Shown piece by piece: positions 1 to 58,273 of a stretch of 64,000 nt of DNA. The notes under the pieces are model-generated. The model saw nothing but the letters and a program-made list of their open reading frames with translations. It had not been told where the DNA came from and ran no database searches. The DNA lies in NCBI GenBank assembly GCA_003971905.1, contig RSEE01000158.1, forward strand, positions 1 through 64,000. The letters run 5' to 3'. Each line of letters begins with the position of its first letter. Positions within the stretch are counted from its first letter, which is position 1. Both the position numbers and the translations under genes were made by a program. The stretch comes from Moniliella sp. 'wahieum' (Eukaryota > Basidiomycota > Moniliellomycetes > Moniliellales > Moniliellaceae).

Positions 1-11
1 AACCCTAACCC
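1..11. repeat. Telomere repeat remnant (CCCTAA)n
   Basis: The window opens with aaccctaaccc, just under two units of the TTAGGG-type telomere repeat in the orientation expected at a left chromosome end. Retroelement sequence starts immediately after, within a base or two. The tract is too short to prove a telomere alone, but a broken element starting exactly here fits a chromosome end trimmed by the assembler. Confidence 0.7.
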
Positions 12-2642
12 GGGTTCAAGGAGGCGGCCGGACGCATGGGCCGCGGTACCTCGCGCGCCCCTCGGACCACGCCGTGTTCAACCTGCTGGCGCTGCCCAAG
101 TGCGGCCTGCAGGGCGACTCGTCGTCGACCGTGTGTGCGTCGCTGCGTGCCTACCCCGAGGTGCCCTGGCCGCAGGCGGCCAAGCGTCCGACGCGCGAGA
201 TGCGCCGGCGCGATGTGCTGGACAAGGCCCACGCCAAGTGACGCAGGGCATGCTCGGCCGCGCGGTCCGGACGCTGGAAGCGGACCAGGACACGGGTGTC
301 ACTGACCGAGGCGACGTACCAGTCGCTGCAGGACAAGCACCGACCGGCCCGCGCAACCCGATGGCCGGTGTTGTGGTCCGGCAGGTTGCGAGCGCCGCCG
401 CCGACGCTGACCGGCGACGCGATCGAGGACGACGAGGGCCACCTGCTGGAAGATCTCGAGGTTCAAGACAAGGATGTGGACCGTGCTGCTAGCTCTCCCG
501 CGACGTGGGAGGCGGCGTCAGTGGCTGGTCCCAGCCGCTGTGCGGCTCGCGCTCCAGCACGACGACTTCAAGGCGGCGGTCAAGTCGATGGCCACCGCCA
601 TGTAGCGGGCACCTGCCCCGGCGCCCAGCTGCTCTGCACCAGCAGGCTCACGGCTCTTGCCAAGCCGGACGGGGTGTGCGCCCCATTGCCTGTGGGGAGC
701 TCCTACCGGCTCCTGGCCAAGATCCTCCTGCTGCACATCGACGTCCGCTCGCCCTCTTGCGCACCCAGCTGGGTGTCAAGTCCAAGGGCGGCGTGGAGCC
801 GATTGTGCGGCTGCTGGACCGCGTCGTCACCGGAGGCGACCAAGGCAACGGCCCCGCGTGGGAGGACCGGTTCAAGTATGTGACGTCGCTCGACTTAAGA
901 ACGCGTTCAACAGCGTGGACCGACATGTGATGGCGCAGGCCGTCAACGACCACTGCCGCGAGCTGGTGCCCTTCTACCGCTGGGCATACGGACACGGACA
1001 GCACACGCAGCTGGTCGCGGGCGGTGCGGGGAACGTGCGCACGATTGTCAGCCAGCAAGGCGTCCGGCAAGGCGATCCCTTTGGCCCCTTTTTCTTTTCC
1101 GTCGCGATCCGGGACACGCTCGCCGCGGCGCAGCGCGCGCTCGGCGACGCAGGTGTGGTCGTGTCCTACCTGGACGACACCTACCTGCTGTCGCGCGAGC
1201 CAACGCACTGTCGCTCGTGTCGGGCGCCTGAAGCACGGAAAGACGGGGCTGGAGCTCAACGTGGCCAAGACCAGCGTCACCAGCGTGCAAGAGATGCAGG
1301 CCCAGGGTGCCAGGTCCTCGGCTCGTGCATTGGGCCCCGGGACGCCCGCCTGGCCTTTCTGCGGGACAAGATTGCGGACCAAGCCTCCCGCTACCCCGCC
1401 CTGCATGGCCTTGCACTGCAGGACCGGCTGCTGCTCTTGCGGTCGTGCCTGCAGCACAACCTCCGCCACCTGCTGCGCTGCATGCGGACTGACGATCTCG
1501 CGGAGGAGCTGGCGCCGCGAGATTGATGGGCAGCTGTGGCAAGAGGTCAAGGCCATCCGGGGCGCCGACCCGAACGACGTGGAGGGACAACGGTGGGACG
1601 AAGCTCTTCTTTCCCTGCCCGCCCGCAGTGGCGGGCTTGGCTTCTTCTCCCACCTCGACGTTGCCCCACACGCGCGGGGCGGCCTCATGCGAGGAGGCGG
1701 ATGTGTGGGTGGAAAAGGTGATTGCTGGCTGCCGACCGGAGAGAGAGAGAGAGAGAGACGCGCCAGCCGCCACGCGACAGTCGCAGCGGGAACGGACGAC
1801 CGCCATGTTTGCCGACCAACAGGCGAAGCTACTGACCGAGCTGCCGCCCGAGTTGGGCCACCGGCTGCTAGAGAACGCCGAAGCGCTCAACCGGACGTGG
1901 ATGTCGGTGGTGCCCTCGACTCCAGCTTTAAACGCTTCCTGACCACGAGGTCATGGCTGGACTACACCTCCGCACCCTCTGCCGGCACGCCGCCGTCTGC
2001 CGGAACTGCAACGGACCCTGCCCAGATGTGGGGCACCTGCAGTCCTGCAACCGGTGGCGCTCGATTGGCAACTACCGCCATGAGATGCTCCGACGCTGCA
2101 TCGTCAACCTGGCCCGGCACATTCCGGCCACCGAGGTGGAGACCGAGCCCTTCACCCAGCCGCAGCGCCCCGGGCGCTACGACCGCACCGCCAACCGCAC
2201 CGACATCAAGCTGACAGGAACCGGTGCCTCCAAGGGCACCTCGACATGCTACGACCTGACGTTTTGGTCTTTCGGGAACAAGACGCGCGACGCCGACATG
2301 CGCCGCGTCCGCCAGCAACTCGCCGCCACCACGCCGGCGCCCGAGCTGCGCAGGAAGGAGATGGATGTGTTTGTCGAGACCGCCGCCAAGGACAAGCACC
2401 GCAAGTACGACGCGATTACTACAGGTGCTTTTGTGCCCTTGGTCTTTACCGCAGGCGGCTACGCCCACGGCGAGGCCAAGGCTGCTTTGGCGCACTGGAA
2501 GGGGGAGGCGAACGCCGGTGCCTACCGCACGTTCACCGCCCTCTTTTCGTCCTGGCTCTTGCGTTGTGCGGTACAAGGCATGCGAGTCGCCCCTTCCCAC
2601 CGCGCCACCCCACGGATGGCGGGGAGGGGGCGATACTCGTAG
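12..2642 (+). CDS. Retroelement polyprotein, copy A, N-terminally truncated (RT + endonuclease)
   Basis: Frame-broken reading of the polyprotein described for copy C. The reverse transcriptase is recognisable (KSKGGVEPIVRLL block, GVRQGDPFGPFFFS motif B, SYLDDTYLL motif C). The best-preserved part is the C-terminal domain at 1953-2642. There a CX2CX8HX3C finger (1998-2048) is followed by YRHEML, then a TD pair at about 2199-2204 and a YD pair at about 2250-2255, about 16 residues apart. This matches the CCHC, RHN and PD-Xn-D order of the restriction-like endonuclease of R2/CRE-type elements. The stop is TAG at 2640. Frame breaks differ from those in B and C, which suggests sequencing error more than decay. 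Confidence 0.8.
1739..1758 (+). repeat. (GA)n microsatellite inside the retroelement ORF
   Basis: About nine GA dinucleotides lie between the reverse transcriptase and the endonuclease finger. The same run is present at about 5988-6007 in copy B and about 10224-10242 in copy C. In frame it would encode alternating Glu-Arg, a charged linker. Confidence 0.85.
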
Positions 2643-2708
2643 AGCCCCGCGCGGCGTAAGCCCAGATGGCGTACACCCCATCCTCGGTACTACTCCTGTC
2701 AGAGCGTT

Positions 2709-2774
2709 TTAGGCGCCAGAAAATGCACCCCCGGGATAACTGGCTTGTGGCAGCCAAGCGTTCATAGCGACGTT

Positions 2775-2810
<36 letters not shown>

Positions 2811-2864
2811 GCCGTAGCAAAATTCGGCAAGCGTTGGATTGTTCACCCACCAATAGGGAACGTG

Positions 2865-2902
<38 letters not shown>

Positions 2903-2958
2903 TCCTACCGTAACACGCGAGTCGACAGTAGTTCCGGCGAGTACGAGAGGAACACCGG
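2709..2958 (+). rRNA. 28S rRNA fragment between copies A and B
   Basis: Contains universally conserved large-subunit strings such as gggataactggcttgtggc, gatgtcggctcttcctatca and ggtttagaccgtcgtgagac, ending in gtacgagaggaacaccgg. It corresponds to the peptidyl-transferase and sarcin-ricin side of the 3' part of 28S. The same block follows copies B and C. It is only about 245-250 nt, so it is a fragment and not a functional gene. Confidence 0.92.
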
Positions 2959-3024
2959 CGCCGCTGTGAACCTGTGCTTGACGGAGCTACGGCGCGGGAC
3001 TACGAGACGACGCTACGGACTACG

Positions 3025-6000
3025 ATGCGCGAAGAAGGAAACGTTTTGGTGCTCGCGTGCCGCACTGCGGGCTGTGCTCCCGCTACGGCCATGTGGACGC
3101 TGGTTGCCAGTCGGTGGTGACGACGGGGAAGCTCTGTGGCGTGTGCCACACCCCGGGCCACCGGCGGGACCAGTGCCAGGAGCTGGTTGACCAGTCGATC
3201 AGGCGCATGGCCGAGCAAGCCGGAGCGGAGCCGCACGATGTGGCCTTGGATGCGGCGGCCATTGTGGCCATGCGCCGAGCGACTGGGCATTGCCGCTGCG
3301 CGAGCGGCGTGCCCGTCGGCGCCCCCAGGACCGCCTCCTGGGCCAGGAACCAACAAGCGTGCCCGAAGCCCAGCCCCCTGACCAGCTCGGACGGGGAGGC
3401 AGACGACGACTGGGTGGACCAAGCCGCAGCCGCGCCGCCGCGCCGCTCGGAGCGCAGAGCCGCCGCCAACGCGGCGTTTGCGCGCCAGGCGACGCTCCTG
3501 GCCGCCGCCGCCGCTGTGCCCCTCCCCTCGTCGCCGCGGAGCTCGCCCTTGTCTTCGCCACGGCCGTCCGATGTGTCGACCAGCTCGGCCCCCCCCTCGC
3601 CCGCTCGCCCCGCCGCGGCGCTCCCGCCGGGTGTGGTGTCTGGTGAAGATCTTCTGCGCCGCCCGCCCCAGGTCCGCCCTGGGGCGGATTCCGGCGTGGG
3701 TGATGTCACCGGTGCCGCGCCCGCTGCGGCGCCCACGGGTGATGATAGCTCGGACGATGAGATTGCCCGCCTGCGACTTTTGTCCTCCCACCCCCTCCCC
3801 CCTCACCCCCACCCAAGACGTGCTCGCCACCCCCCCCCCACCTCCCGCCCGTTCATTGACTTTGACCCTCTCGACTTTGCCGCGGCGGCCGCGCGCTGTT
3901 CGCCGAGTCGCCCTCGCCTGCGCCTGACGCTGCTGCCGAGGAGCGTGGGGCCACCGGCGCTGCCCCCGCGGGCAGCGCCGACCCGCGTTTGACGCGCAGT
4001 TCCAGGAGCTGCTGCAGGAGCAGCAGTGCCCGCGCCCGCGGCGCGCCGCACCGTGGCGCCCGTGGCGCCCGCCCGAAGTGACGGCCGGCGACGCCCGCCG
4101 CGCGGCCCGTGCCCAGCTCTCGCCCTCGCCCGCGCCCCCGCCCGTCGACCTGCCCGCCGACCCGACGCTCGTGCCCGGGTGGCGCGACCAGCGCCCGCAC
4201 GCTCAAGAAGCGCTTTGCCTCGCTGGCAGAGTGTGCCGCGCCCTCCTGGCCCGGCAGCACCATGGTGCGCCGCCGGTTCAAGGAGGCGGCCGGACGCATG
4301 GGCCGCGCGTACCTCGCGCGCCCCTCGGACCACGCCGTGTTCAACCTGCTGGCGCTGCCCAAGTGCGGCCTGCAGGGCGACTCGTCGTCGACCGTGTGTG
4401 CGTCGCTGCGTGCCTACCCCGAGGTGCCCTGGCCGCAGGCGGCCAAGCGTCCGACGCGCGAGATGCGCCGGCGCGATGTGCTGGACAAGGCCCACGCCAA
4501 GTGACGCAGGGCATGCTCGGCCGCGCGGTCCGGACGCTGGAAGCGGACCAGGACACGGTGTCACTGACCGAGGCGACGTACCAGTCGCTGCAGGACAAGC
4601 ACCCGACGGCCCAGCGCAACCGATGGCCGGTGTTGTGGTCCGGCAGGTTGCCGAGCGCCCGCCGACGCTGACCGGCGACGCGATCGAGGACGACGAGGGC
4701 CACCTGCTGGAAGATCTCGAGGTTCAAGACAAGGATGTGGACCGTGCTGCTGCTAGCTTCTCCCGCGACGTGGGAGGCGGGTCAGTGGCTGGTCCCAGCC
4801 GCTGCTGCGGCTCGCGCTCCAGCACGACGACTTCAAGGCGGCGGTCAAGTCGATGGCCACCGCCATGTACGCGGGCACCTGCCCCGGCGCCCAGTGCTCT
4901 GCACCAGCAGGCTCACGGCTTGCCAAGCCGGACGGAGGTGTGCGCCCCATTGCCTGTGGGGAGCTCCTCTACCGGCTCCTGGCCAAGATCCTCCTGCTGC
5001 ACATCGACGTCCGCTCCCCTCTTGCGCACCCAGCTGGGTGTCAAGTCCAAGGGCGGCGTGGAGCCGATTGTGCGGCTGCTGGACCGCGTCGTCACCGGAG
5101 GCGACCAAGGCAACGGCCCCGCGTGGGAGGACCGGTTCAAGTATGTGACGTCGCTCGACTTTAAGAACGCGTTCAACAGCGGGACCGACATGTGATGGCG
5201 CAGGCCGTCAACGACCACTGCCGCGAGCTGGTGCCCTTCTACCGCTGGGCATACGGACAGCACACGCAGCTGGTCGCGGGCGGTGCGGGGAACGTGCGCA
5301 CGATTGTCAGCCAGCAAGGCGTCCGGCAAGGCGATCCCTTTGGCCCTTTTTCTTTTCCGTCGCGATCCGGGACACGCTCGCCGCGGCGCAGCGCGCGCTC
5401 GGCGACGCAGGTGTGGTCGTGTCCTAGGACGACACCTACCTGCTGTCGCGCGAGCCCAACGCACTGTCGTCGTGTCGGGCGCCCTGAAGCACGGAAAGAC
5501 GGGGCTGGAGCTCAACGTGGCCAAGACCAGCGTCACCAGCGTGCAAGAGATGCAGGCCCAGGGTGCCAAGGTCCTCGGCTCGTGCATTGGGCCCCGGGAC
5601 GCCCGCCTGGCCTTTCTGCGGGACAAGATTGCGGACCAAGCCTCCCGCTACCCCGCCCTGCATGGCCTTGCACTGCAGGACGGCTGCTGCTCTTGCGGTC
5701 GTGCCTGCAGCACAACCTCCGCCACCTGCTGCGCTGCATGCGGACTGACGATCTCGCGGAGGAGCGCGCGAGATTGATGGGCAGCTGTGGCAAGAGGTCA
5801 AGGCCATCCGGGGCGCCGACCCGAACGACGTGGAGGGACAACGGTGGGACGAAGCTCTTCTTTCCCTGCCCGCCCGCAGTGGCGGGCTTGGCTTCTTCTC
5901 CCACCTCGACGTTGCTCCCCACGCGCGGGCGGCCTCATGCGAGGAGGCGGATGTGGGGTGGAAAAGGTGATTGCTGGCTGCCGACCGGAGAGAGAGAGAG

Positions 6001-6885
6001 AGAGAGACGCGCCAGCCGCCACGCGACAGTCGCAGCGGGAACGGACGACCGCCATGTTTGCCGACCAACAGGCGAAGCTACTGACCGAGCTGCCGCCCGA
6101 GTTGGGCCACCGGCTGCTAGAGAACGCCGAAGCGCTCAACCGGACGTGGATGTCGGTGGTGCCTCGACTCCAGCTTTAACGCTTCCTGACCACGAGGTCA
6201 TGGCTGGACTGCACCTCCGCACCTCTGCCGGCACGCCGCCGTCTGCCGGAACTGCAACGGACCCTGCCCAGATGTGGGGCACCTGCAGTCCTGCAACGGT
6301 GGCGCTCGATTGGCAACTACCGCCATGAGATGCTCCGACGCTGCATCGTCAACCTGGCCCGGCACATTCCGGCCACCGAGGTGGAGACCGAGCCCTTCAC
6401 CCAGCCGCAGCGCCCCGGGCGCTACGACCGCACCGCCAACCGCACCGACATCAAGCTGACAGGAACCGGTGCCTCCAAGGGCACCTCGACATGCTACGAC
6501 CTGACGTTTTGGTCTTTCGGGAACAAGACGCGCGACGCCGACATGCGCCGCGTCCGCCAGCAACTCGCCGCCACACGCCGGCGCCCGAGCTGCGCAGGAA
6601 GGAGATGGATGTGTTTGTCGAGACCGCCGCCAAGGACAAGCACCGCAAGTACGACGCGATTACTACAGGTGCTTTTGTGCCCTTGGTCTTTACCGCAGGC
6701 GGCTACGCCCACGGCGAGGCCAAGGCTGCTTTGGCGCACTGGAAGGGGGAGGCGAACGCCGGTGCCTACCGCACGTTCACCGCCTCTTTTCGTCCTGGCT
6801 CTTGCGTTGTGCGGTACAAGGCATGCGAGTCGCCCTTCCCACCGCGCCACCCCCACGGATGGCGGGGAGGGGGCGATACTCGTAG
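3025..6885 (+). CDS. Retroelement polyprotein, copy B (CCHC-CCHC-RT-CCHC-RLE)
   Basis: The ATG at 3025 was chosen because in copy C the same ATG reads in frame (MREEGNVLVPRVPHC) into the first zinc knuckle; here one base is missing before it. Two perfect CX2CX4HX4C knuckles lie at 3066-3107 (CGLCSRYGHVDAGC) and 3135-3176 (CGVCHTPGHRRDQC). A Pro/Ser/Ala-rich linker of about 270 codons follows, then reverse transcriptase (about 4800-5460) and the C-terminal finger with endonuclease motif (about 6240-6520). The stop is TAG at 6883. Several one-base breaks occur, for example the loss at the YLDD box near 5426 that makes a stop. These are absent from the sister copies. Confidence 0.82.
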
Positions 6886-6953
6886 AGCCCCGCGCGGCGT
6901 AAGCCCAGATGGCGTACACCCCATCCTCGGTACTACTCCTGTCAGAGCGTTTT

Positions 6954-7017
6954 AGGCGCCAGAAAATGCACCCCCGGGATAACTGGCTTGTGGCAGCCAA
7001 GCGTTCATAGCGACGTT

Positions 7018-7052
<35 letters not shown>

Positions 7053-7095
7053 GCCGTAGCAAAATTCGGCAAGCGTTGGATTGTTCACCACCAAT

Positions 7096-7142
<47 letters not shown>

Positions 7143-7196
7143 TCCTACCGTAACACGCGAGTCGACAGTAGTTCCGGCGAGTACGAGGAACACCGG
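6954..7196 (+). rRNA. 28S rRNA fragment between copies B and C
   Basis: Second copy of the 28S block, differing from the first by a few single-base gaps (for example gtacgaggaac where the others read gtacgagaggaac). It ends at caccgg, where copy C begins. Confidence 0.92.
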
Positions 7197-10100
7197 CGCC
7201 GCCTGTGAACCTGTGCTTGACGGAGCTACGGCGCGGGACTACGAGACGACGCTACGGACTACGATGCGCGAAGAAGGAAACGTTTTGGTGCCTCGCGTGC
7301 CGCACGGGCTGTGCTCCGCTACGGCCATGTGGACGCTGGTTGCCAGTCGGTGGTGACGACGGGGAAGCTCTGTGGCGTGTGCCACACCCGGGCCACCGGC
7401 GGGACCAGTGCCAGGAGCTGGTTGACCAGTCGATCAGGGATGGCCGAGCAAGCCGGAGCGGAGCCGCACGATGTGGCCTTGGATGCGGCGGCCATTGTGG
7501 CCCATGCGCCCGAGCGATGGGCATTGCCGCTGCGCGAGCGGCGTGCCCGTCGGCGCCCCCAGGACCGCCTCCTGGGCCAGGAACCAACAAGCGTGCCCGA
7601 AGCCCCAGCCCCCTGACCAGCTCGGACGGGGAGGCAGACGACGACTGGGTGGACCAAGCCGCAGCCGCGCCGCCGCGCCGCTCGGAGCGCAGAGCCGCCG
7701 CCAACGCGGCGTTTGCGCGCCAGGCGACGCTCCTGGCCGCCGCCGCTGTGCCCCTCCCCTCGTCGCCGCGGAGCTCGCCCTTGTCTTCGCCACGGCCGTC
7801 CGATGTGTCGACAGCTCGGCCCCCCCTCGCCCGCTCGCCCCGCCGCGGCGCTCCCGCCGGGTGTGGTGTCTGGTGAAGATCTTCTGCGCCGCCCGCCCCA
7901 GGTCCGCCCTGGGGCGGATTCCGGCGTGGGTGATGTCACCGGTGCCGCGCCCGCTGCGGCGCCCACGGGTGATGATAGCTCGGACGATGAGATTGCCCCG
8001 CCTGCGACTTTTGTCCTCCCCACCCCTCCCCCCCTCACCCCCACCCAAGACGTGCTCGCCACCCCCCCCCACCTCCCCGCCGTTCATTGACTTTGACCCT
8101 CTCGACTTTGCCGCGGCGGCCGCGCGCCTGTTCGCCGAGTCGCCTCGCCTGCGCCTGACGCTGCTGCCGAGGAGCGTGGGGCCACCGGCGCTGCCCCCGC
8201 GGGCAGCGCCGACCCGCGTTTGACGCGCAGTTCCAGGAGCTGCTGCAGGAGCAGCACGTGCCCGCGCCCGCGGCGCGCCGCACCCGTGGCGCCCGTGGCG
8301 CCCGCCCGCACGTGCCGGCCGGCGCGCCCCCGCCGCGCGGCCGTGCCCAGCTCTCGCCCTCGCCCGCGCCCCCGCCCGTCGACCTGCCCGCCGACCCGAC
8401 GCTCGTGCCCGGTGGCGCGACCAGCGCCCGCACGCTCAAGAAGCGCTTTGCCTCGCTGGCAGAGTGTGCCGCGCCCTCCTGGCCCGGCAGCACCATGGTG
8501 CGCCGCCGGTTCAAGGAGGCGGCCGGACGCATGGGCCGCGCGTACCTCGCGCGCCCCTCGGACCACGCCGTGTTCAACCTGCTGGCGCTGCCCAAGTGCG
8601 GCTGCAGGGCGACTCGTCGTCGACCGTGTGTGCGTCGCTGCGTGCCTACCCGAGGTGCCCTGGCCGCAGGCGGCCAAGCGTCCGACGCGCGAGATGCGCC
8701 GGCGCGATGTGCTGGACAAGGCCCACCGCCAAGTGACGCAGGGCATGCTCGGCCGCGCGGTCCGGACGCTGGAAGCGGACCAGGACACGGTGTCACTGAC
8801 CGAGGCGACGTACCAGTCGCTGCAGGACAAGCACCCGACCGGCCCGCGCAACCCGATGGCCGGTGTTGTGGTCCGGCAGGTTGCCGAGCGCCGCCGCGAC
8901 GCTGACCGGCGACGCGATCGAGGACGACGAGGGCCACCTGCTGGAAGATCTCGAGGTTCAAGACAAGGATGTGGACCGTGCTGCTGCTAGCTTCTCCGCG
9001 ACGTGGGAGGCGGCGTCAGTGGCTGGTCCCAGCCGCTGCTGCGGCTCGCGCTCCAGCACGACGACTTCAAGGCGGCGGTCAAGTCGATGGCCACCGCCAT
9101 GTACGCGGGCACCTGCCCCGGCGCCCAGCTGCTCTGCACCAGCAGGCTCACGGCTTGCCAAGCCGGACGGAGGTGTGCGCCCCATTGCCTGTGGGGAGCT
9201 CCTCTACCGGCTCCTGGCCAAGATCCTCCTGCTGCACATCGACGTCCGCTCGCCCCTCTTGCGCACCCAGCTGGGTGTCAAGTCCAAGGGCGGCGTGGAG
9301 CCGATTGTGCGGCTGCTGGACCGCGTCGTCACCGGAGGCGACCAAGGCAACGGCCCCGCGTGGGAGGACCGGTTCAAGTATGTGACGTCGCTCGACTTTA
9401 AGAACGCGTTCAACAGCGTGGACCGACATGTGATGGCGCAGGCCGTCAACGACCACTGCCGCGAGCTGGTGCCCTTCTACCGCTGGGCATACGGACAGCA
9501 CACGCAGCTGGTCGCGGGCGGTGCGGGGAACGTGCGCACGATTGTCAGCCAGCAAGGCGTCCGGCAAGGCGATCCCTTTGGCCCCTTTTTCTTTTCCGTC
9601 GCGATCCGGGACACGCTCGCCGCGGCGCAGCGCGCGCTCGGCGACGCAGGTGTGGTCGTGTCCTACCTGGACGACACCTACCTGCTGTCGGCGGAGCCCA
9701 ACGCACGTCGCTCGTGTCGGGGCCCTGAAGCACGGAAAGACGGGGCTGGAGCTCAACGTGGCCAAGACCAGCGTCACCAGCGTGCAAGAGATGCAGGCCC
9801 AGGGTGCCAAGGTCCTCGGCTCGTGCATTGGGCCCCGGGACGCCCGCCTGGCCTTTCTGCGGGACAAGATTGCGGACCAAGCCTCCCGCTACCCCGCCCT
9901 GCATGGCCTTGCACTGCAGGACCGGCTGTGCTCTTGCGGTCGTGCCTGCAGCACAACCTCCGCCACTGCGCGCTGCATGCGGACTGACGATCTGCGGAGG
10001 AGCTGCGCGAGATTGATGGGCAGCTGTGGCAAGAGGTCAAGGCCATCCGGGGCGCGACCCGAACGACGTGGAGGGACAACGGTGGGACGAAGCTCTTCTT

Positions 10101-11323
10101 CCCTGCCCGCCGCAGTGGCGGGCTTGGCTTTCTCCCACCTCGACGTGCTCCCCACGCGCGGGCGGCCTCATGCGAGGAGGCGGATGTGTGGGTGGAAAAG
10201 GTGATTGCTGGCTGCCGACCGGAGGAGAGAGAGAGAGAGAGACGCGCCAGCCGCACGCGACAGTCGCAGCGGGAACGGACGACCGCCATGTTTGCGACCA
10301 ACAGGCGAAGCTACTGACCGAGCTGCCGCCCGAGTTGGGCCACCGGCTGCTAGAGAACGCCGAAGCGCTCAACGGACGTGGATGTCGGTGGTGCCCTCGA
10401 CTCCAGCTTTAACGCTTCCTGACCACGAGGTCATGGCTGGACTACACCTCCGCACCCTCTGCCGGCACGCCGCCGTCTGCCGGAACTGCAACGGACCTGC
10501 CCAGATGTGGGGCACCTGCAGTCCTGCAACCGGTGGCGCTCGATTGGCAACTACCGCCATGAGATGCTCCGACGCTGCATCGTCAACCTGGCCCGGCACA
10601 TTCCGGCCACCGAGGTGGAGACCGAGCCCTTCACCCAGCCGCAGCGCCCCGGGCGCTACGACCGCACCGCCAACCGCACCGACATCAAGCTGACAGGAAC
10701 CGGTGCCTCCAAGGGCACCTCGACATGCTACGACCTGACGTTTTGGTCTTTCGGGAACAAGACGCGCGACGCCGACATGCGCCGCGTCCGCCAGCAACTC
10801 GCCGCCACCACGCCGGCGCCCGAGCTGCGCAGGAAGGAGAGGATGTGTTTGTCGAGACCGCCGCCAAGGACAAGCACCGCAAGTACGACGCGATTACTAC
10901 AGGTGCTTTTGTGCCCTTGGTCTTTACCGCAGGCGGCTACGCCCACGGCGAGGCCAAGGCTGCTTTGGCGCACTGGAAGGGGGAGGCGAACGCCGGTGCC
11001 TACCGCACGTTCACCGCCCTCTTTCGTCCTGGCTCTTGCGTTGTGCGGTACAAGGCATGCGAGTCGCCCCTTCCCACCGCGCCACCCCACGGATGGGGGG
11101 AGGGGGCGATACTCGTAGAGCCCGCGCGGCGTAAGCCAGATGGCGTACACCCCACTCGGACTACTCCTGTCAGAGCGTTTTAGGCGCCAGAAAATGCACC
11201 CCGGGATAACTGGCTTGTGGCAGCCAAGCGTTCATAGCGACGTTGCTTTTTGATCCTCGATGTCGGCTCTTCCTATCATGCCGTAGCAAAATTCGGCAAG
11301 CGTTGGATTGTTCACCCACCAAT

Positions 11324-11370
<47 letters not shown>

Positions 11371-11426
11371 TCCTACCGTAACACGCGAGTCGACAGTAGT
11401 TCCGGCGAGTACGAGAGGAACACCGG
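7197..11426 (+). mobile_element. 28S-associated non-LTR retrotransposon, copy C (full length, last in array)
   Basis: Third unit in the tandem. Its 28S block (11182-11426) does not lead into another element but continues as ordinary 28S sequence. Copy C therefore marks the true right-hand genomic junction of the array and shows that the 3' side of the insertion is native 28S. Confidence 0.9.
7264..11118 (+). CDS. Retroelement polyprotein, copy C (best-preserved reverse transcriptase)
   Basis: Likely function is target-primed reverse transcription into 28S rDNA. The first 17 or so codons from ATG 7264 are in frame. The reverse transcriptase is almost unbroken over about 9150-9700: motif A TSLDFKNAFNSV (9386-9420), motif B SQQGVRQGDPFGPFFF (9547-9594) and motif C VSYLDDTYLL (9658-9687) hold the three catalytic aspartates. 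The C-terminal CCHC finger and TD/YD endonuclease pair follow at about 10470-10740, and the stop is TAG at 11116. Total is about 1,280 codons. The finger-plus-endonuclease C terminus places it with restriction-like-endonuclease elements (CRE/R2/NeSL group) and not with APE-type R1 elements. Exact clade needs a tree. Confidence 0.85.
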
Positions 11427-11560
11427 GGCCGGGCCTCCAGTGAGCACCTGTCCGACCGGGCAGAGGTGCGCAGCCGCGCCCGCCGAGTAAACACCTGAAC
11501 GCTCTAAGGTGGAACTCGTGCTAGTACGCTCGCATGTGGCTGGACTGGGTACCAATAGGC
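11182..11560 (+). rRNA. 28S rRNA 3' end (partial), continuous through the insertion point
   Basis: The duplicated block (11182-11426) continues without interruption into sequence matching the terminal 28S domain, including acctgaacgctctaaggt and gtgctagta, which correspond to conserved TGAACGCCTCTAAG and ATGCTAG. The right limit is approximate because similarity fades after about 11540. Several normally invariant stretches are altered, notably the part between gttagttttatcctacc and gtacgagagg, so this copy may be divergent or degenerate. Confidence 0.85.
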
Positions 11561-12156
11561 GCAAGCCGTACACCACGGGGGGGTCTCTGGGGGGGCGACG
11601 CCCCACCACACGCCCCACAATATACACATGAAGCACACTGCAAATCCCCCGCATACGACGGGGCATGGTCCGAGCGCCGTACGCCGTAGAGTGGGCTTGT
11701 TCCCACGATCGGCTGAAGCCCATCTCGGCACCTCTGATTCCCCCCCCCCTCGGGAGGGGGTTCCTGACCAAGTCCCAACCCTACCCCCGAAAAAATATGG
11801 AAAAATAGCGCGCTGCGGCGCAAGAAAGAACGAAAAGAGGGAAAGAAAAGAGGGAAGACTGCGTGAGCGGCGCCGGACGCTCTATCAGGTTTGAGCCATA
11901 CCCTTTACTTGCCCCGTTTTCCCCCCCGTTTTACCCGCTGCGAGCACCCCCAAAACCCTACTGACCACCGCTCGCTCCACTGCGGCGAGTATCCCCTGGG
12001 GGTGTCGCTAGGGGGCTCCCTAGGGTTCTCCCTAGGGTTTCCCTTGTGGATTCTCCCTCCTCCTCCTTGTACTCTCCTACTGGGCTAGCCCCAGTAGGGT
12101 TGCCCCTTGTCAATATACGCCCCCCCCCACCATACCCCCCTCCAAACACCCTGTGT
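11561..12156. other. rDNA intergenic spacer between 28S and 5S
   Basis: No coding sequence is supported. The spacer is G-run and C-run rich. A 12-mer ctccctagggtt occurs twice back to back at 12016-12039, in a stretch with several further ccctaggg-like words that resemble degenerate telomere repeat. That could be chance in a C-rich spacer. Confidence 0.6.
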
Positions 12157-12275
12157 ATCCGCGGCCATAGAACTGTGAAAGCACCGCATCCCGTCCGATC
12201 TGCGAAGTAACCACAGTATCGCCCAGTCAGTACTACGGTGGGGGACCACGTGGGAATCCTCGGTGCCGCGGTTCT
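12157..12275 (+). rRNA. 5S rRNA
   Basis: About 118 nt with strong match to fungal 5S: agcaccgcatcccgtccgat in the 5' half, gcgaagtaacc, then agtactacggtgggggacc and acgtgggaatcct, ending ggtgccgcggttc. The internal pol III promoter (A box, IE and C box) lies in these strings. A T5 run follows immediately. Same strand as 28S, inside the rDNA spacer, as in many basidiomycetes. Confidence 0.95.
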
Positions 12276-13144: not shown

Positions 13145-13224
13145 TGCAGATATGAGTGCCTTACGGGATGTACTTGTCCCTATCTATACGTTGCGAAACC
13201 ACAGCCTAAGGAACGGGCTAGGCA
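13145..13224 (+). rRNA. 28S rRNA fragment carrying the R1-site region
   Basis: Contains tgtccctatcta, gcgaaaccacagcc and aaggaacgggctaggca, which match the conserved 28S region around the classical R1 insertion site (GCGAAACCACAGCC / AAGGGAACGGGCTTGGCA). In 28S this region lies several hundred nucleotides upstream of the block found between copies A-C. A diverged retroelement starts directly downstream. Confidence 0.85.
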
Positions 13225-13955
13225 ATTACGGCGCGGGCAAGAACATTGGTACGATGACGATGCGCCCTCGACAATGCGAGCGGTGCTCCCGATTCGGGCA
13301 TACGGCAGCGGTCTGCCAACGCGACTGGGGGCAAGAAGTGCGGCCTGTGCCGCATCCCCGGCCACCGACGCGACCAATGCCAAGACTGATTGATGCGTCG
13401 ATCAGGGCGATTGCTCGCAAGAAAGGGGTACCCCGAGCAAGTTGAATGCAGCGCAGAAGAAATCGTGGCGAACGGGTCGGAGCGAATCGGAGTGTTGGCA
13501 GCAGCGGCTGCCGCGTTGGATGCGTCCCGGGCAGGCGCGCGTGGTTCATGGAAAGAAAACGTGGTCGGTTTACTACTCCCCTCCGACTCGGAGGGGGAGT
13601 CTTTTGGCGGCGGTCAAGACGCCAGGACGGGGACGATCGCGGTCGCCGGGCGTCAATGGGGCCGGTGCGCCGCTCGACGCGGAGGGCAGCGCTCAACGCT
13701 TGTCTTTGTGCGCAGGGCTGCCGTTGCGGAGAGACGGCCTTGGTCCCCTTGCCTGGTGGATCCGACAATGGGTTGGAGTCGGGCAAGGAAGGAGGGGACG
13801 GAGTGGGAAGCGAGGGGGGTGGATCGGAGGGCGAGGGGGGCGGCGGCGAGGGTGAGGCGGCCAGCTCGGGGCGGAGGCGTTCTCGAGGCGGCCTCTGGTC
13901 TATCCCCCCCCCGTCTAGCCCCTGGCGAAGCTCCTTCCCAGTGAAAAGAAAACAG
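13225..13955 (+). mobile_element. Diverged relative of the retroelement, 5' part only (zinc knuckles)
   Basis: Starts with tacggcgcggg, shared with the 5' leader of the intact element, then encodes two CCHC knuckles in two frames: CERCSRFGHTAAVC (about 13274-13315) and CGLCRIPGHRRDQC (about 13339-13380). The second is nearly identical in type to that of copies A-C. A Ser/Arg/Gly-rich linker follows until about 13950 with several frame changes, and no reverse transcriptase follows. This is a separate, older lineage truncated after its gag-like part. Confidence 0.75.
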
Positions 13956-38589: not shown

Positions 38590-40086
38590 CTACGGTGCGT
38601 CGCCCGCTGAGTCGCCCGCCCCGTCATCCGCCACGTCGTCCGCCACATCGTCCGCCACGTCCATCCAGACCCGGATGCTAGGATCATGTTCCATGCTGCC
38701 CGAGGCGATGATAGGGAGGGTAGGGTGTACCTGGCAGAACGACGAGGTCAGTAATGCTGCATATCCGCAATCCCCGCCGCTGCGCTGCTGCCTGCTTCCA
38801 GGGGCCCAGACTCACCGCGAGTGCCAGAATGACGTCGGTATGTCCAAAGAGCGTCTGTACCACCTCCTTGCTCTGCACATCCCAGATCCAAACTTTTTGG
38901 TCCTCAGCCCCGCAGACGACCTGAATCTCAGGCAGTGATGCGCGCTCTCCGCCGCTGGGCCAGCGGGGCGGGTGAAAACCGCCTTGGTGGGGTACCGTTC
39001 GTTCATGTGACCAGTGTAGGTCTTGACGATCTTACCGTTGATCACGTCCCAGAGGCGGACCGAGTTGTCCAATGTGCTCGCCAGCAGAAAGGAGGAGGAA
39101 GGGGCAAATTTGACGGACGCAACAGGCGTGGCAACTGTGGCCATCATTGGACCCGTCTGGGGCACAAGCGTCTTGAGACACTGCCCCGTCAGCACGTTCC
39201 ACAGCCGCCTGAAGGGGTGCAGGTCAGCAGTCAGCGTTCAGTCCAGGGCAACCGCAGAAGCCCCCAAAGCAGAAAAAGGAGTAACGTACACCAGGCCGTC
39301 GTAGCTCCCTGTTGCGGCCATTGCGCCGTCGGCACTAAAATCCACCGAGGTCACGGCCTCAGTGTGGGCATTGATCACCTTGAGACATTCGCCTGCACAG
39401 GATACCGCGTCAGATCAGAATCGCACCTTTGCGGGGGGGGAGAGGACCTACCTCGTCGCAAATCCCACAGCCGCAGTGTTTCATCGTACCCTCCGCTGGC
39501 CACCAGCGTTCCTTGGGGGTTAAATGCCACGCACAAGATCCAGCTCTTGTGGCCTTCCAGCGTGCGCGCCAACTCGCCCTGCAGGAGAAGGAACAAGGTT
39601 AAGAGATGGCCAAGGGTTAAACGTGGGGGGGAGGTCACATACTGTCCGAGCATTCCACACCTTGACCATTTTGTCGTCGGAGGCAGAGGCGACATAGGTC
39701 GAGTCGGGACTCCATGCCACGTCGGAGATGCCTTGCGTATGACCGCGGAGCGAGAAGAGCAGGCTGCCGGTTGGCAGCGACCAGACCTGCACGACGCGGT
39801 CTGAGCCAGCGGAAGCCAGACGCGTACCGTCGGGGGAGAAAGCTAGGGCGGACACAGAGCGCGAGTGGCCATGGAGAGAGACGACTTGCTGGTAGCTGGG
39901 GCTGGGATGTGAGGCAGTGAGAGGACCTGGGGTGGTGGAACTGAGCGCTTTTGCTGCTTGTGCTGGGTCAGGCTGCTGAGGCTGGGACTCCAGACGCCGG
40001 CGCTTGCTACTGGGCGCATCCTCCTCCTTGACGGGGTCCGAGCCGAGACACGTTTGTTCCTCCGAGTCGGGGCGAAGTACGAGCAT
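38590..40086 (-). CDS. SWD3: WD40 protein, WDR5/Swd3-like (COMPASS subunit)
   Basis: Predicted seven-bladed propeller that in COMPASS (Set1/MLL) supports histone H3 lysine 4 methylation in the nucleus. ATG 40086 opens an N-terminal tail with a basic patch (SSKRRRLES). Propeller repeats follow in WDR5 order: [91 protein letters not shown], then [12 protein letters not shown] and [19 protein letters not shown], with the last repeat IRVW. The C terminus is an Ala-Asp repeat ([10 protein letters not shown]) before TAG at 38590. Introns of roughly 55-80 nt separate repeats (for example donor gtatgt near 39641). One frame break follows NERY. Divergently arranged with ALG10. Confidence 0.85.
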
Positions 40087-40524
40087 GGCGGCAGAATGTG
40101 GAGCTGCGTGGGAGCATCTGCTGTGGGGGTGGGAGGGGGGGGTCGGGCGAAGGGTGGGCGGAGGGCGAGAGTGGAGGGGCGGCGGTGGAGAGCGTGTGGT
40201 GAGTGGAGGACCCAGCACCGGCGGCGGGCGTGGCCATGGAGAGGGCGGTGGTGGCGACGGGCACGACGGAGGGAGACGCGGCGGCGGGAGCGTGGGGGCT
40301 GCTGTGGAACGCGTCGCGCAGCGTCGGGCGGGGACTCTAGCATCGGATCAGTGACCCTGGACCTGCGCCAGTTGGCCGGCGGCGGAACAGACAGCGGCCG
40401 TTTCAAACGTTCATCCAATGGGCCGTCCATCGTCACGGGTCGGTCCTCGGCGCCGTTGCGCGTGGGCTCCGCTCTGCTCCGCTCGGGTGGCAGCCACGCT
40501 CCGCCGCCTCCGCCCTGCCCGTCC
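40087..40524. promoter_or_regulatory. Bidirectional promoter region, WD40 gene / ALG10
   Basis: About 440 bp of G-rich (plus strand) sequence between divergent start codons. Long G-rich and GGC-rich stretches; no TATA box seen. Confidence 0.5.
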
Positions 40525-42143
40525 ATGCCGGCCCTGCGCTCCTTCCTGGCCGCGGCCTGGGTCCTGGGCTTGGGCCTGGTCGCCCGCCGCGTGAACGAGG
40601 AGGTGTCGGCGCCGTACATGGACGAGCTCTTCCATGCGCCCCAGGCAGCCGCCTACTGCCGCGGCGAGTGGCGCCGGTGGGACCCCAAGCTCACCACCCC
40701 GCCCGGCCTCTACCTCCTCTCTGTCCTGGGCGCCATCCCCCACCGCCTCCTCTCCGCACTGCCGTCCTTTTGCACGTCGCTGCCCTTCCTCCGCCTCGTG
40801 CCACTTCTGTCCCTCTTGGCGCTGCCGTGGCTCCTCGCCGCGCTGCGCTTCGCGTTGGCCCCCCCCGGCGGGGCCTACACCACTGCACTGCTCGAAGGCT
40901 ATGCCATCTCATCTCTCTCCCCGCTCTGGATGCTGGGCTTTCTGTACTACACTGATGTACCTAGTCTGGCCTCGTTCCTGCTCTGCTATCTGTTGGCCAC
41001 AAAACGGCACTACGCTTTGTCCTCCGTGGTACGTATTTTTCGGCTGATTCCTGGCAGCTCTCCTCTGACTGTGACTGCGGTGTTGATACCGGGTGCGCCT
41101 CGTAACGTCCAGATGGGCGTGGTCTCGCTTTTCTTCCGCCAGACAAACATCATCTGGGTCGCCTTTGTGGCCTGGACCGTGCTCCTGACCGACCTGGAAG
41201 AGGGAGGGATGTACCTGCCTCCATTGTCCAGGCAAGCGCCTGGCCATTGCGTCCCTTGACCATGATGGCTCATAGCCTAACGCATCTTTCGTGGCCTGCC
41301 TGGCGGCGGGCTGCAACCCACCTAGCCTTCTACCTCCCTTCTCCCATCCTCTTTGCCGCGTTTTTGTATTGGAACGGCGGTATCGTTCTCGGGGACAAGA
41401 GCAACCACCAAGCTGGGCTTCACTTCATGCAGCTCCCGTACCTTGCGCTCTTCACTTCCCTCTTTGCGTGGCCGTACCTGTTCGCCTTGGCGGGAGGCAC
41501 TGTGCGCGACTTGTGTACCGCCCAGTCGCGACGTACTAGGGCGACCGTGGCGCGTGGGTTTTTCGTGCTGTGCCTGGGGTTGGTGGCGCTGTCCGATGGG
41601 GCACGCTATTCCATCCTTTTCTCCTGGCTGACAACGCCCTATCCCTTCTACTTTCGTCGCCGTCGCTGGCCGGCCGGCGACGCGATACGGCGCTGGTACC
41701 GCTGTATGCATTGAGTGTGCGCTTGTGGGCGGCGCCTGGCCCAGTCCCGCAGCCGCTCTGGCTCGTTGGCCTACTCGGTCTCGGCCCTGGTGCTCGTCCC
41801 GTCGCCGCTGCTGGAGCCACGGTACTTTGTGGTGCCGTACATTATCATGCGCCTAAACCTACCTGTACCTGGGTGCCGGCTGCGATGGGCGAGGCCCAGC
41901 GGACGAGGCGGACGAGAGGGACAAGACGGGCGATGCGGACGGTACGGAGGGGCTGCCGGCGCACGTATCGGATCCGAGAGATTCTCAGTGTGCCAATGTG
42001 CGCGACGGGTCGCTCCTGCGCCGCTGGGCCACTGTCGAGCTAGGATGGGCCATGGCTCTCAATCTTGTCACCATGTCCATCTTTCTCTACCGACGTTTTC
42101 GTGGCCGCAGGAGCCGGGGCAGGCCCAGCGGTTCATGTGGTGA
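40525..42143 (+). CDS. ALG10: ALG10/DIE2 dolichyl-P-Glc alpha-1,2-glucosyltransferase
   Basis: Adds the third, terminal glucose to the lipid-linked N-glycan precursor in the ER lumen. ATG 40525 begins with a hydrophobic helix. YMDELFHAPQAAAYCRGEWR and WDPKLTTPPGLYLLS form the family signature loop. Further transmembrane segments and YTDVPSLASFLLCYL precede an intron (about 41031-41112, gtacgtatt to tccag). FFRQTNIIWVAF, NGGIVLGDKSNHQAGLHFMQ, HPFLLADN with FYFRRR, EPRYFVVPYIIMRLNL and the terminal PQEPGQAQRFMW at TGA 42141 are all ALG10 hallmarks in order. The protein is broken by at least three single-base gaps. Length is near the usual 450-500 residues. Confidence 0.93.
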
Positions 42144-54870: not shown

Positions 54871-57541
54871 TTAGGTTCTAGCAAATTGGCCAAAAAGGAA
54901 CCCATTGGCCTGAGCAGTCGTAGGGAAGGCAGAACCAAGCAGGAAGTCCCCTGTGAGATCTCTGTCCCCCTCGCCGGCAGCCAGGCTCGAAGGGAAGAGT
55001 TCCAGTAAGGCGCTTGGAGGCATGGCGAACCCACTTAGGTCTGCTTCGGGCGCAAGCTCCACGACTGATGTGCTGCCATCTTGCGGACTCGTGGTAAGTT
55101 CGGGGCCGAGACGAAGCGGAGCAGGGCGGGGACGAGAGGCGGATATGGCAGGCTGTTCGGGAAGAGAGGCCTGGGGAACAGGTCGAACTGGCTCCACCGA
55201 GATGGAAGGGGCAGGGGGTGGCGGTGGAGGAGAAGGAGAATGGGCGCAGCGGGGGGAATTGCCTCCACTGAAAGAAACCAAGACGGATCGATCGGCTGCC
55301 CAAAACCCTTACGGGAAGAGGCACTTGGGTGGAAGGGGCGGAAGACGCGCCCCCATCAATGCCGGGATGCGATGAGGCTCATCAACATCGAGTGAATGAG
55401 AACGATCCACGGTTGGAGATGGAGCTGAGGTCGTGCCACCAAGCTCGGGTGCAATATCGGGTGATAGGGTAGGAGGGGCTAGATTGGAGTTGGGAACTAG
55501 AACAACTCGGCGATGTTGGATCCACTGGTCCCATTGCATACACAATCCTCGGGTAGTGCAGATGTCGTCGAGCCAACCAAAAAACTTATGCCCCATGGTG
55601 GTACCTAGATGAAGAGGCATCTGGGCTTGGTCCGCGGATGGCTGCAGAGGAAGCGTTCTGCCTCCCGTCAAGTGCCATGCCGAGTCCAAGACGCCGACCA
55701 ACGCCGTAGGGTTGATCCCACCCGTCTCGGACGCTGCCAAGTTTGGGGGCAAAAGAGCATCGAGGGCGAGCGTAGGTCCAAAAAGAACACTGTGGGTCAT
55801 ATGGAAGAACGATAGAAGCTCGTTCCAAAGCAACGGAGGGGGGTGTTCTTCCCCCACACCTCTTGTTGCAAAAGCGGCTGAAGCAGTTCGGTCCGTAGAC
55901 GCTTGACCCACTCGTTCATGTCATCCAGAGGCCCGATCTTGGTCTGTTCAAATGCGTTCACCACCGTCGCGACTTGTACTGCATCCCCTGACGCTTGCGA
56001 CAGAGCTTGAATCCACGCCCTCTGATTTGCATCGAACTTGTTCAGTCCATGTTGCTCAATGAACCGTGCAAGTTGGACGTGATGCGATAACAGTTGGAAC
56101 TGGACAGCGTGAGGATGAGTGAGCTCGTGCCCCCAAAAGCAGGTATCGTCTTGCTGGATTGCACAGATGAGTTGCTGTTGCAACTCAACATGCAGCTCGT
56201 TGTCCATCATTGACGGAAGCCGATAAGGACGTTGGGTAACCAGCCCCCCAGCTTTTCTAGCGTGTACAGTGACCAATAAAGGACCCATGCTTGGGGTGTG
56301 CCACCGTTAGGATTATGAAAGATGGTTTCGTAGGCCATACTCATCGTGCCTTCCAACCAATTCACCCATGTGGCCGAACCCAACCCGCCCGAGCCACACC
56401 AGTAATAGCCGAGCAACAACTGGGCTTGGATCAGGTCCACATTGACAGGCGCTCCCTCGCACCCGAAAAGGCTTGTATGGAGAGAAGAAGTATGGTGGTC
56501 TAATTGTTTTTGGACCGCATCGTGGGCCAGGCGCCACCCCTCGGTCCGCCCCCAGGTAAGCAATCCAGATTGATGTTCCTGTACCAAGGGACGATGACTC
56601 GATGAGCTCGCCATCGTTGCTCCGGCAGCAGCGATGGCGAGGAGGAGATGGGTTGAGATGGGTTGGATAGGAGCGACAGCAGGATCGTGTTGTGGGAGAG
56701 GTGAATTCAGCGCCGCCCATTGGTTCAGGACCGTCGTTCTGTCCAAGCTGACACTCGCTAAGCCGGAGTGATCAAAAAAATGGTGCAACAGTTGTTCGAC
56801 CACAGAAGGGAGTAAGTCGGAGGGTATGATGGCAAACCGATCTAGACCCCAAGTTTGCACATCGGAGCTAGGTCGCGGGCGATCTTGAGGCGCAGACGGT
56901 TCATTCGAGCTACCGACCAGCCCGTGGTTGGTCACCCGGGTAAAATACAGCCCGTTGCGCCAGCCCTGAGCAAAGTCGCACTTGACCCCAGCTTTGGCGC
57001 AGTTGCTGCATGGCTCGTCGTCAGCCTTATGCTTTGCATCGCACCGTAGTTTCCGCCTGCGACAGGCAGCGCAAGATGTGAAGGTGATCTCCCGGCGCTG
57101 CCGTGGACGAGGGGCCGGGCTAGGCCGCCCCCTTTGAGGGGGTAAGGGTGGCTTGCGCCGCATTTTTGACGGTGGGATGGCTAGGCTAGGGTCGAGATGG
57201 ATTGGGTTTAGATGGGGGTTGGAGCTGCTGTGTTTGCAATGGGCGTCGAGGACATCAGTACCGGATGCACCGTCGGAGGATGCGGAAGCGAAAGAGCCCT
57301 GCGGCGTTTTTCGACTATTACTCCTTGCGACCGAGGACGAAGACGAAGCGTTGGCGGATGGTGTGGTCAAAGGGGCGGCGAGGTGTGGCTGGGAAACAGT
57401 GGGGATATTGGTGGTTGTGGAGCTGTACAGTTGCCTGTGGGCAGCATAGACGACATTGGGCGGCAGGACGGTGTGGACGGTGGGGGCGATGTGCGCGTCT
57501 TCTGGGGCGGCCGGCGGCAAGCCGAGGTTGGTGCTGTCCAT
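54871..57541 (-). CDS. Zn(II)2Cys6 fungal transcription factor 1
   Basis: Nuclear DNA-binding regulator of unknown target genes. ATG 57541 starts a Ser/Pro/Thr-rich N terminus, then a basic patch (RKPPLPPQRGRPSPAPRPRQ). The binuclear zinc cluster is CAACRRRKLRCDAKHK followed by CSNCAKAGVKC, with all six cysteines in order (about 56975-57075). A central region follows with helices typical of the fungal-specific regulatory domain (LLPSVVEQLLHHFFDH, LLLAIAAAGATMA, SLYTLEKLGGWLPN). Downstream frames continue (ELHVELQQQLICAIQQDD, ALLPPNLAASETGG) to a Pro/Ser-rich C terminus ending at 54871. Total is about 890 residues with at least three one-base frame breaks. No cluster partner genes identify its pathway. 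Confidence 0.88.
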
Positions 57542-58273
57542 GAAGAAGGTGAAAGGGAGTGGCCGACGTGGCGGCGGCAGGGGCGGTGGCGATGGAGATG
57601 ACGATGGTAGGTACAGCCTCCGGCGTGCTAAGGAATATAGCAGCCCATCAACCAGTCAGTGATAGGCCCCGAGGCAGCTGCCAGAGATGTGCAGGCCAAA
57701 CCGACACAAAGGCGGGCACTGCTACGCTGCCCCCGCACCTACCCCGCGCTCTGGCACTGGCGCTGCGCTGGGGCAGCCGGGGGCTGGACGATTGGGGGCG
57801 TCATGCGCGTCATGCATCATGCGTCACGGTGCTGCTCTGCTGGAAGAGGCGGGCGCGATCCAGCCCCTTTGGTCGCATGTGGTTTGCCTAGCAGAGGCGC
57901 CGTGGTGCTTCGTCCAGGCGCGCCTGCGATTGAAGCGGCGGAGTTGCATTCAGTCACGTGCGCCAGGCGGGCTGCCAGCCAAGCATGCCAGCCCGAGCAG
58001 TGACTAGTGACTAGCTTGACGGGTTGCACGGCAAAACGCCTGCAAACGCCCCCTGCGAGCTAAGCAAATCAGACAACTCGGGCACACAGCTGCCAACCCT
58101 ACTGCGCACTGCTGGGGCGTCCAGCCACTTCTGGCCAAAAACCTCTCCTGTCCACGTCACGCGCATGGCGGCGCACAAACCAGCCGGTAGCTGCCCCCTT
58201 GCAAGCGCTCCAGCGGCTCTGATAGGCGTTGCGACTCCCTCCCGCGGCCACCCTGACGACCACGACCCTTCGC
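57542..58273. promoter_or_regulatory. Divergent upstream region, Zn2Cys6 factor 1 / SHR3
   Basis: About 730 bp between divergent starts. A tcacgtg word (57953-57959) and short direct repeats gtgactagtgactag (58000-58014) are present. No TATA box clearly placed. Confidence 0.45.

Follow-up and report, generated by a model that had tools for sequence, protein, structure and literature searches.

R9 is an element of bdelloid rotifers, reportedly described by Gladyshev and Arkhipova in 2009. This animal element falls in the R2-A clade (PMC3581529) and makes a target-site duplication of 126 bp, as against a 2-bp deletion in R2Bm and small staggers in other R2s (PMC6895275). Here, we looked at the first 64 kb (the window) of C158, one contig of a fungal genome assembly of 69.5 Mb in 223 contigs, where a retroelement of about 4.0 kb lacking long terminal repeats (non-LTR) is present in three copies (A, B and C) arranged head-to-tail, with the same stretch of the 28S ribosomal RNA (rRNA) gene 3' of each. 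From its sequence, we take it to be a site-specific non-LTR retrotransposon of the restriction-like endonuclease (RLE) type in subtelomeric fungal ribosomal DNA (rDNA), which would insert by target-primed reverse transcription with nicks about 223 bp apart, and we give this reading a probability of about 0.72.

The element resembles R9 in being apparently 28S-specific and R2-related and in its exceptionally long target-site duplication (PMC6895275, PMC5035012, PMC3581529), and it is set apart from R9 by duplication length and host, since the duplication is about 223 bp (219-225) in a fungus instead of 126 bp in an animal. With R2 it shares the 28S target and, apparently, a single protein with zinc fingers, a reverse transcriptase (RT) and a putative C-terminal endonuclease, and R2 is its best solved relative by RT profile. 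However, the R2 site, which we take to be AAGGTAGCC, lies 537 nt upstream of the insertion in this 28S and is not the site occupied here. Two further differences from R2 are that the zinc knuckles are of the CCHC type and that a hepatitis delta virus-like ribozyme was not detected at the 5' junction, where 28S was the only Rfam family matched at E<=10 by L010:4700-5200 (C33). In the CRE clade (MoTeR, FoTeR, Cnl1, SLACS and CRE1), SLACS and CRE1 target spliced-leader genes; the element differs from the clade in targeting 28S and not telomere repeats or spliced-leader genes. It resembles these fungal or site-specific elements in a putative endonuclease motif of the same plan (PMC12857005) and in its position near chromosome ends. 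Target duplications are usual in CRE elements (PMC3636483), and MoTeR and FoTeR target telomere repeats (PMC12857005).

A solitary insertion is flanked by a long 28S duplication

We searched the genome with the 28S block and found at least 20 places, 17 with the block and 3 with the element 3' tip only. One of them is a solitary insertion (C33:4789-8836). There, native 28S continues as far as the end of the block, where the element starts, and the element is followed by the block again and then by the native 28S 3' end. The rDNA unit is otherwise continuous and includes 5.8S, 28S and an 18S that is truncated by the start of the contig. C2 is identical to C33 letter for letter over 9 kb (1-9000) and then diverges; the shared stretch is probably an assembly duplicate and was counted once. 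An earlier note on this DNA had proposed comparing both flanks of a single insertion in an rDNA unit, and the solitary copy does have the long duplication. At the insertion place, 28S without an element was found on four contigs (C219, C53, C201 and C14), and the 3' part of 28S was preceded by the element on C158, C30, C24, C33/C2 and C69; C10 starts inside the block and is uninformative. Four element 5' ends (three distinct) were found, all of them after the block.

At the outer end of C158, the order is telomeric repeat AACCCTAACCC, copy A, 28S block, copy B, block, copy C, block, 28S 3' end and 5S gene, with a unit spacing of about 4.23-4.26 kb. As first described, the block starts at 2711, 6954 and 11182 and ends (AACACC) at 2956, 7194 and 11424. 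These coordinates and the spacing confirm the head-to-tail copies with a 28S block at every junction that had been reported from the sequence, and after copy C the 28S does run on past the block as reported, reaching the native 28S 3' end and then 5S.

Two of the element-free contigs, C219 (L015 1288) and C53 (L017 7004), carry a hybrid 28S that is native upstream and has the element-type TGCACCCCC in place of GTTACCACA. The idea that this is an excision scar was dropped, because a polishing artefact from element-linked reads could produce identical letters. The hybrid reflects either recombination or such an artefact and was given no weight.

The element mimics 28S at its 3' end

The left edge reads AGGTGCCAGAAAAGTTACCACA^GGGATAACTGG in native 28S and AGGCGCCAGAAAATGCACCCCC^GGGATAACTGG after the elements (a caret marks the junction). 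The opening 22 nt of the originally described block, AGGCGCCAGAAAATGCACCCCC versus native AGGTGCCAGAAAAGTTACCACA, are thus not native when they stand 3' of an element. This look-alike is identical to native 28S at 16/22 positions in register (chance 3.5e-6 to 4.4e-5, by base frequency assumed), and it belongs to the element because ectopic copies also end with it. The right edge, AACACC^GG, is the same in native 28S and at element junctions, the G being shared. In C33 the duplication measures 219-225 bp, depending on the assignment of shared bases; with both cuts placed at CAC(A/C)^GGG, it comes to 223 bp.

The solitary copy supports the long duplication put forward in the earlier note and, with it, a long stagger between the nicks. 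The size of about 245 bp given there has to be revised to about 223 bp, because the element 3' end mimics 28S just upstream of the nick. The claim that each insertion regenerates a full target turned out half true, since each duplicate keeps one heptamer and has the other altered. The 3' duplicate reads CCCCC^GGG at the nick site (native CCACA^GGG) and keeps the second site, CACC^GGG; the 5' duplicate keeps the native nick site, and its second heptamer now reads CACC^GGC. Should the heptamer be important, arrays would be predicted to grow in a polar fashion, with new insertions entering the leftmost block on the 5' side.

Ectopic copies share a target motif with 28S

The element 3' end was found in at least 15 places, 8 in rDNA, 5 ectopic and 2 in diverged relatives. 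All five ectopic 3' ends stop at the look-alike terminus, and 5'-truncated copies with a constant 3' end are present, as in RLE-bearing non-LTR retrotransposons. Both flanks are available for four ectopic insertions, three of which begin at (C/A)ACA^GGG as in 28S; their duplications, 53, 12 and 5 bp long, all lie to the same side. These are C63 (site CCACCACA^GGGATG; 53 bp, the 3' copy with 8 and 3 extra nt), C1 (TACAACA^GGGACA; 12 bp, 3 extra nt on the 5' side) and C127 (TGCCACA^GGGGGT; 5 bp). The fifth ectopic copy, on C222, has telomeric repeat on its 5' side. Within CCACA, where the look-alike differs from native 28S, the targets agree with native 28S in full (C63, C127) or at 4/5 positions (C1). 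This suggests that the site is selected by a DNA motif which the protein reads and not by pairing between RNA and target.

CCACAGGG occurs twice in 102 kb of the window, both strands included. On the rRNA strand of 28S, CAC(A/C)GGG has exactly two sites, which are the two edges of the duplication (C33 and C201 copies). By a chance estimate, 20/3267 positions would match 6/7 within 2 bases. The heptamer at the second edge is suggestive of a cut signal and not proof of one.

In the two diverged relatives (C30:694k and C49:271k), the look-alike is absent, a different 3' region is common to both, and no duplication is readable.

The encoded protein looks like an R2-related RLE-type protein

The protein was read from pieces of the C33 copy with no frame repaired. 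It appears as a single protein with two N-terminal CCHC zinc knuckles, an RT with YLDD and a C-terminal endonuclease-like region. RVT_1 was matched above the cut-off in copy C (2e-11) and below it in the C33 pieces. A profile of 23 RT sequences searched against solved structures gave R2 proteins as the best match (8.8e-30), with LINE-1 at 8.9e-10; with the C33 piece alone, the R2 match was just 0.024. Organism names are attached to three of the 25 RT relatives: Tilletia laevis, Saitozyma and a label of Rickettsiaceae metagenome-assembled genome. By eye, the C-terminal region has the motif C-X2-C-X8-H-X3-C-X9-RHE, followed by RTD and then D, a plan like that of the published REL motif (PMC12857005). 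The C-terminal model shows an alpha-beta-beta-beta-alpha-beta order, in agreement with an endonuclease of the PD-(D/E)XK kind, with RTD and YD on neighbouring strands, but at low confidence, the overall predicted local distance difference test (pLDDT) score being only 63. Homologues of the endonuclease piece alone were sought among 2164 candidates, and none was found at E<=0.001. Altogether, the protein looks like one of the RLE type whose closest solved kin is R2.

Copies in rDNA are recent or homogenised

Substitutions between rDNA copies amount to 0.0-0.35%, or 0.7-1.0% for pairs with copy C, and indel events to 0.5-2.0%. The differing columns lie mostly beside gaps or in single-copy runs. 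Given this assembly noise, broken reading frames are no evidence of decay. The ectopic, telomere-capped C222 copy differs from the rDNA copies by 0.35-0.76% substitutions and the C63 copy by 4.1-5.2%. The rDNA set is recent or homogenised.

Element fragments were also seen at L016 3365-4950 and L020 5580-7172 (C69 and C14). These inverted subtelomeric fragments are 2.5-4.4% diverged from the rDNA copies, lie opposite to the 28S orientation and have similar subtelomeric flanks.

Proposed mechanism and alternatives

In the mechanism that we favour, the bottom strand of 28S would be nicked at CCACA^GGGATAACTGG, the junction observed at the left edge, in what we take to be the peptidyl-transferase region. 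The element RNA, ending in ...GCACCCCC(GGG), would be copied from that 3'-OH, perhaps aided by three pairs between GGG and the primer CCC. The top strand would be cut 223 bp downstream at the second heptamer copy, CACC^GGG, the boundary observed at the right edge and presumably just past the sarcin-ricin loop. Fill-in of this stagger would leave the block on both sides, which is the structure seen. An array could then form when a duplicate receives another insertion, or when duplicates undergo exchange with each other. A more specific version is that the endonuclease reads CAC(A/C)^GGG at two places 223 bp apart, the first for its bottom-strand nick and the second for its top-strand nick, that the 3' mimicry spoils the nick motif of one duplicate, and that nicks may create chromosome ends; taken as a whole, we hold it tentatively and consider it rather unlikely.

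Several observations weigh against insertion with a 223-bp stagger. The assembly contains just one independent solitary insertion that has native 28S upstream of it (C33), and a single substitution distinguishes the duplicate on its left (CACGCGAG) from that on its right (CAAGCGAG), which is unexpected for a fresh duplication; left-hand blocks read CAC in 3/3 distinct cases, and element-free 28S reads CAA in 4/4. Indels also fall inside the 28S block, where assembly noise is present. The ectopic duplications are far shorter than 223 bp and imperfect in C63 and C1, the second heptamer was seen by eye at 0/3 ectopic right-hand edges, and the ectopic insertion C30:609k, with both flanks present, lacks the motif. 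Within 28S, CAC(A/C)GGG occurs once more on the other strand, an extra C at the second edge in C14 breaks the match there, and the looser CACNGGG is matched at another place. The endonuclease piece alone had no match in Pfam or the PDB. Finally, we infer cleavage from junctions, the cuts themselves being invisible in sequence.

The CAC/CAA pattern is what would be expected if the 5' block were carried and not made by a stagger: a 28S co-transcript (28S...block-element) would be reverse transcribed, and its cDNA would anneal or recombine upstream of a simple nick. The right block of C33 reads CAA like the element-free 28S, no ectopic full-length copy, which would show a 5' end without the block, was found, and 5' integration via homologous recombination is reported for R2Bm. 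However, CAC is also present in 3/5 element-to-native-28S blocks (copy C, C30 and C24, with CAA in C33 and C69) and may thus be a local allele or the result of gene conversion. Moreover, a carried block accounts neither for the heptamer that the boundary and the nick site have in common nor for the ectopic duplications, and we regard this explanation as improbable. More plausible, at somewhat less than an even chance, is that the array, and not the solitary insertion, was grown by unequal exchange between 28S blocks, which is compatible with a staggered single insertion. The blocks are direct repeats of about 220 bp, the copies are nearly identical, and exchange in tandem rDNA is known (PMC13188248). 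Yet A, B and C are no closer to one another than to copies elsewhere (substitutions B-C 1.0%, B-C33 0.3% and B-C30 0.09%), and one clean two-state single-nucleotide polymorphism puts A and C together with C69 and sets them apart from B, which goes with the remaining copies; this evidence against exchange is weak, blurred by concerted evolution and assembly noise.

A false tandem, in which rDNA and element reads were collapsed by the assembly, would fit the noisy contig ends, the identical 9 kb in C33 and C2 and the indels in rRNA. It is very unlikely, since, even leaving C2 aside, five contigs (C158, C30, C24, C33 and C69) show element-to-28S junctions with different inner flanks, a recurrence limited by the 98.9% likeness of C30 and C24 over 3.3 kb, and the same element 3' terminus is also present at ectopic sites. 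The alternative raised in the earlier note, that the 28S block is part of the element 3' untranslated region, has next to no chance: the 22 nt at the start of the originally described block are indeed element sequence, but the rest is carried by 0/5 ectopic 3' ends. Likewise, the search suggested there for elements elsewhere with the block at their 3' end gave none among the five ectopic ends found.

Truncated elements adjoin telomeric repeats

Telomeric repeats join truncated elements on C158, C30, C24 and C222. On the plus strand, the 25 matches to CCCTAACCCTAACCCTAA are spread over 17 contigs and all fall within the first 33 bases, and on the minus strand there are 20 matches on 14 contigs. 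A backwards control pattern gave 66+36 matches; since the control is more frequent, it is the position of the matches and not their number that is evidence for a telomeric repeat. A telomere-specific retroelement was considered and rejected, as the insertions read here are in 28S or, in 3/4 ectopic cases, at (C/A)ACAGGG, and telomeric repeats adjoin truncated 5' ends only.

On C129 (L019 610) 28S begins with AACTGG and on C112 (L021 6656) with TAACTGG, 4-5 nt past the proposed nick, and both are joined to a telomere-associated C-rich repeat present near many contig ends. Microhomology to CCCTAAC could alone select such joins (28S has 16 TAAC), and the two joins may share an origin. Chromosome breakage by the element at these places is thus a lead only.

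A 70-bp piece of 28S (native 4093-4161, L010 numbering) was seen at 13175-13243 of the window, directly 5' of a zinc-knuckle open reading frame (ORF; to about 13400) resembling the element N-terminus. Stretches like it are found at 19 places (19/30 matches; 6 are 28S itself and 5 partial), and the 28S piece was checked at 9. They are perhaps the remains of a sister element with another 28S site. In a second rDNA unit (C33:15001-17629; L011, L045), 28S stops at native position 4103, near the start of this piece.

Features of the window and host

Table 1. Array and linked rDNA genes in the window.
Feature	Position	Strand	Source
Telomeric repeat (AACCCTAACCC), outer end of C158, joined directly to copy A	1..11	+	sequence
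Element copy A, 5'-truncated by telomere; 3' end includes 28S look-alike	12..2732	+	
28S look-alike (AGGCGCCAGAAAATGCACCCCC), 3' end of copy A	2711..2732	+	
28S target-site duplicate 1 (GGGATAACTGG...GGAACACC), between A and B	2733..2956	+	
Element copy B, full length	2957..6975	+	
28S look-alike, 3' end of copy B	6954..6975	+	
28S target-site duplicate 2, between B and C; short through assembly indels	6976..7194	+	
Element copy C, full length; RVT_1 domain in ORF 8800-9987	7195..11202	+	
28S look-alike, 3' end of copy C; one C fewer	11182..11202	+	
28S target-site duplicate 3, continuous with native downstream 28S	11203..11424	+	
Native 28S 3' end	11425..11740	+	RF02543
5S rRNA gene of the linked rDNA unit, on the 28S strand	12157..12274	+	RF00001

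Farther along the window are an ALG10-like gene (39913-41256) and a gene for a fungal Zn2-Cys6 domain protein (56210-57655). The ALG10-like host gene has 20 relatives at E<=1e-20, with 34-43% identity over about half of its length. Of the 13 named relatives, we take 10 to be basidiomycetes, the rest being a glomeromycete, Coemansia and a plant record. This supports the fungal host assumed earlier, and, judged from this gene, the host is probably a basidiomycete not closely related to any of these.

Significance

Titles and abstract openings of open-licence PMC papers, a weak survey for that reason, yielded no 28S-specific non-LTR element in a fungus. To our knowledge, no target-site duplication longer than about 223 bp has been described for a site-specific long interspersed nuclear element (LINE). 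How LINEs make the second cut is called unclear (PMC6895275). Two cuts 223 bp apart, apparently sharing a heptamer, would make it possible to test cleanly if a single protein recognises the two sites. If true, the reading proposed here would add a fungus to the hosts in which R2-like elements target 28S, and it may link an rDNA element to chromosome-end breakage.

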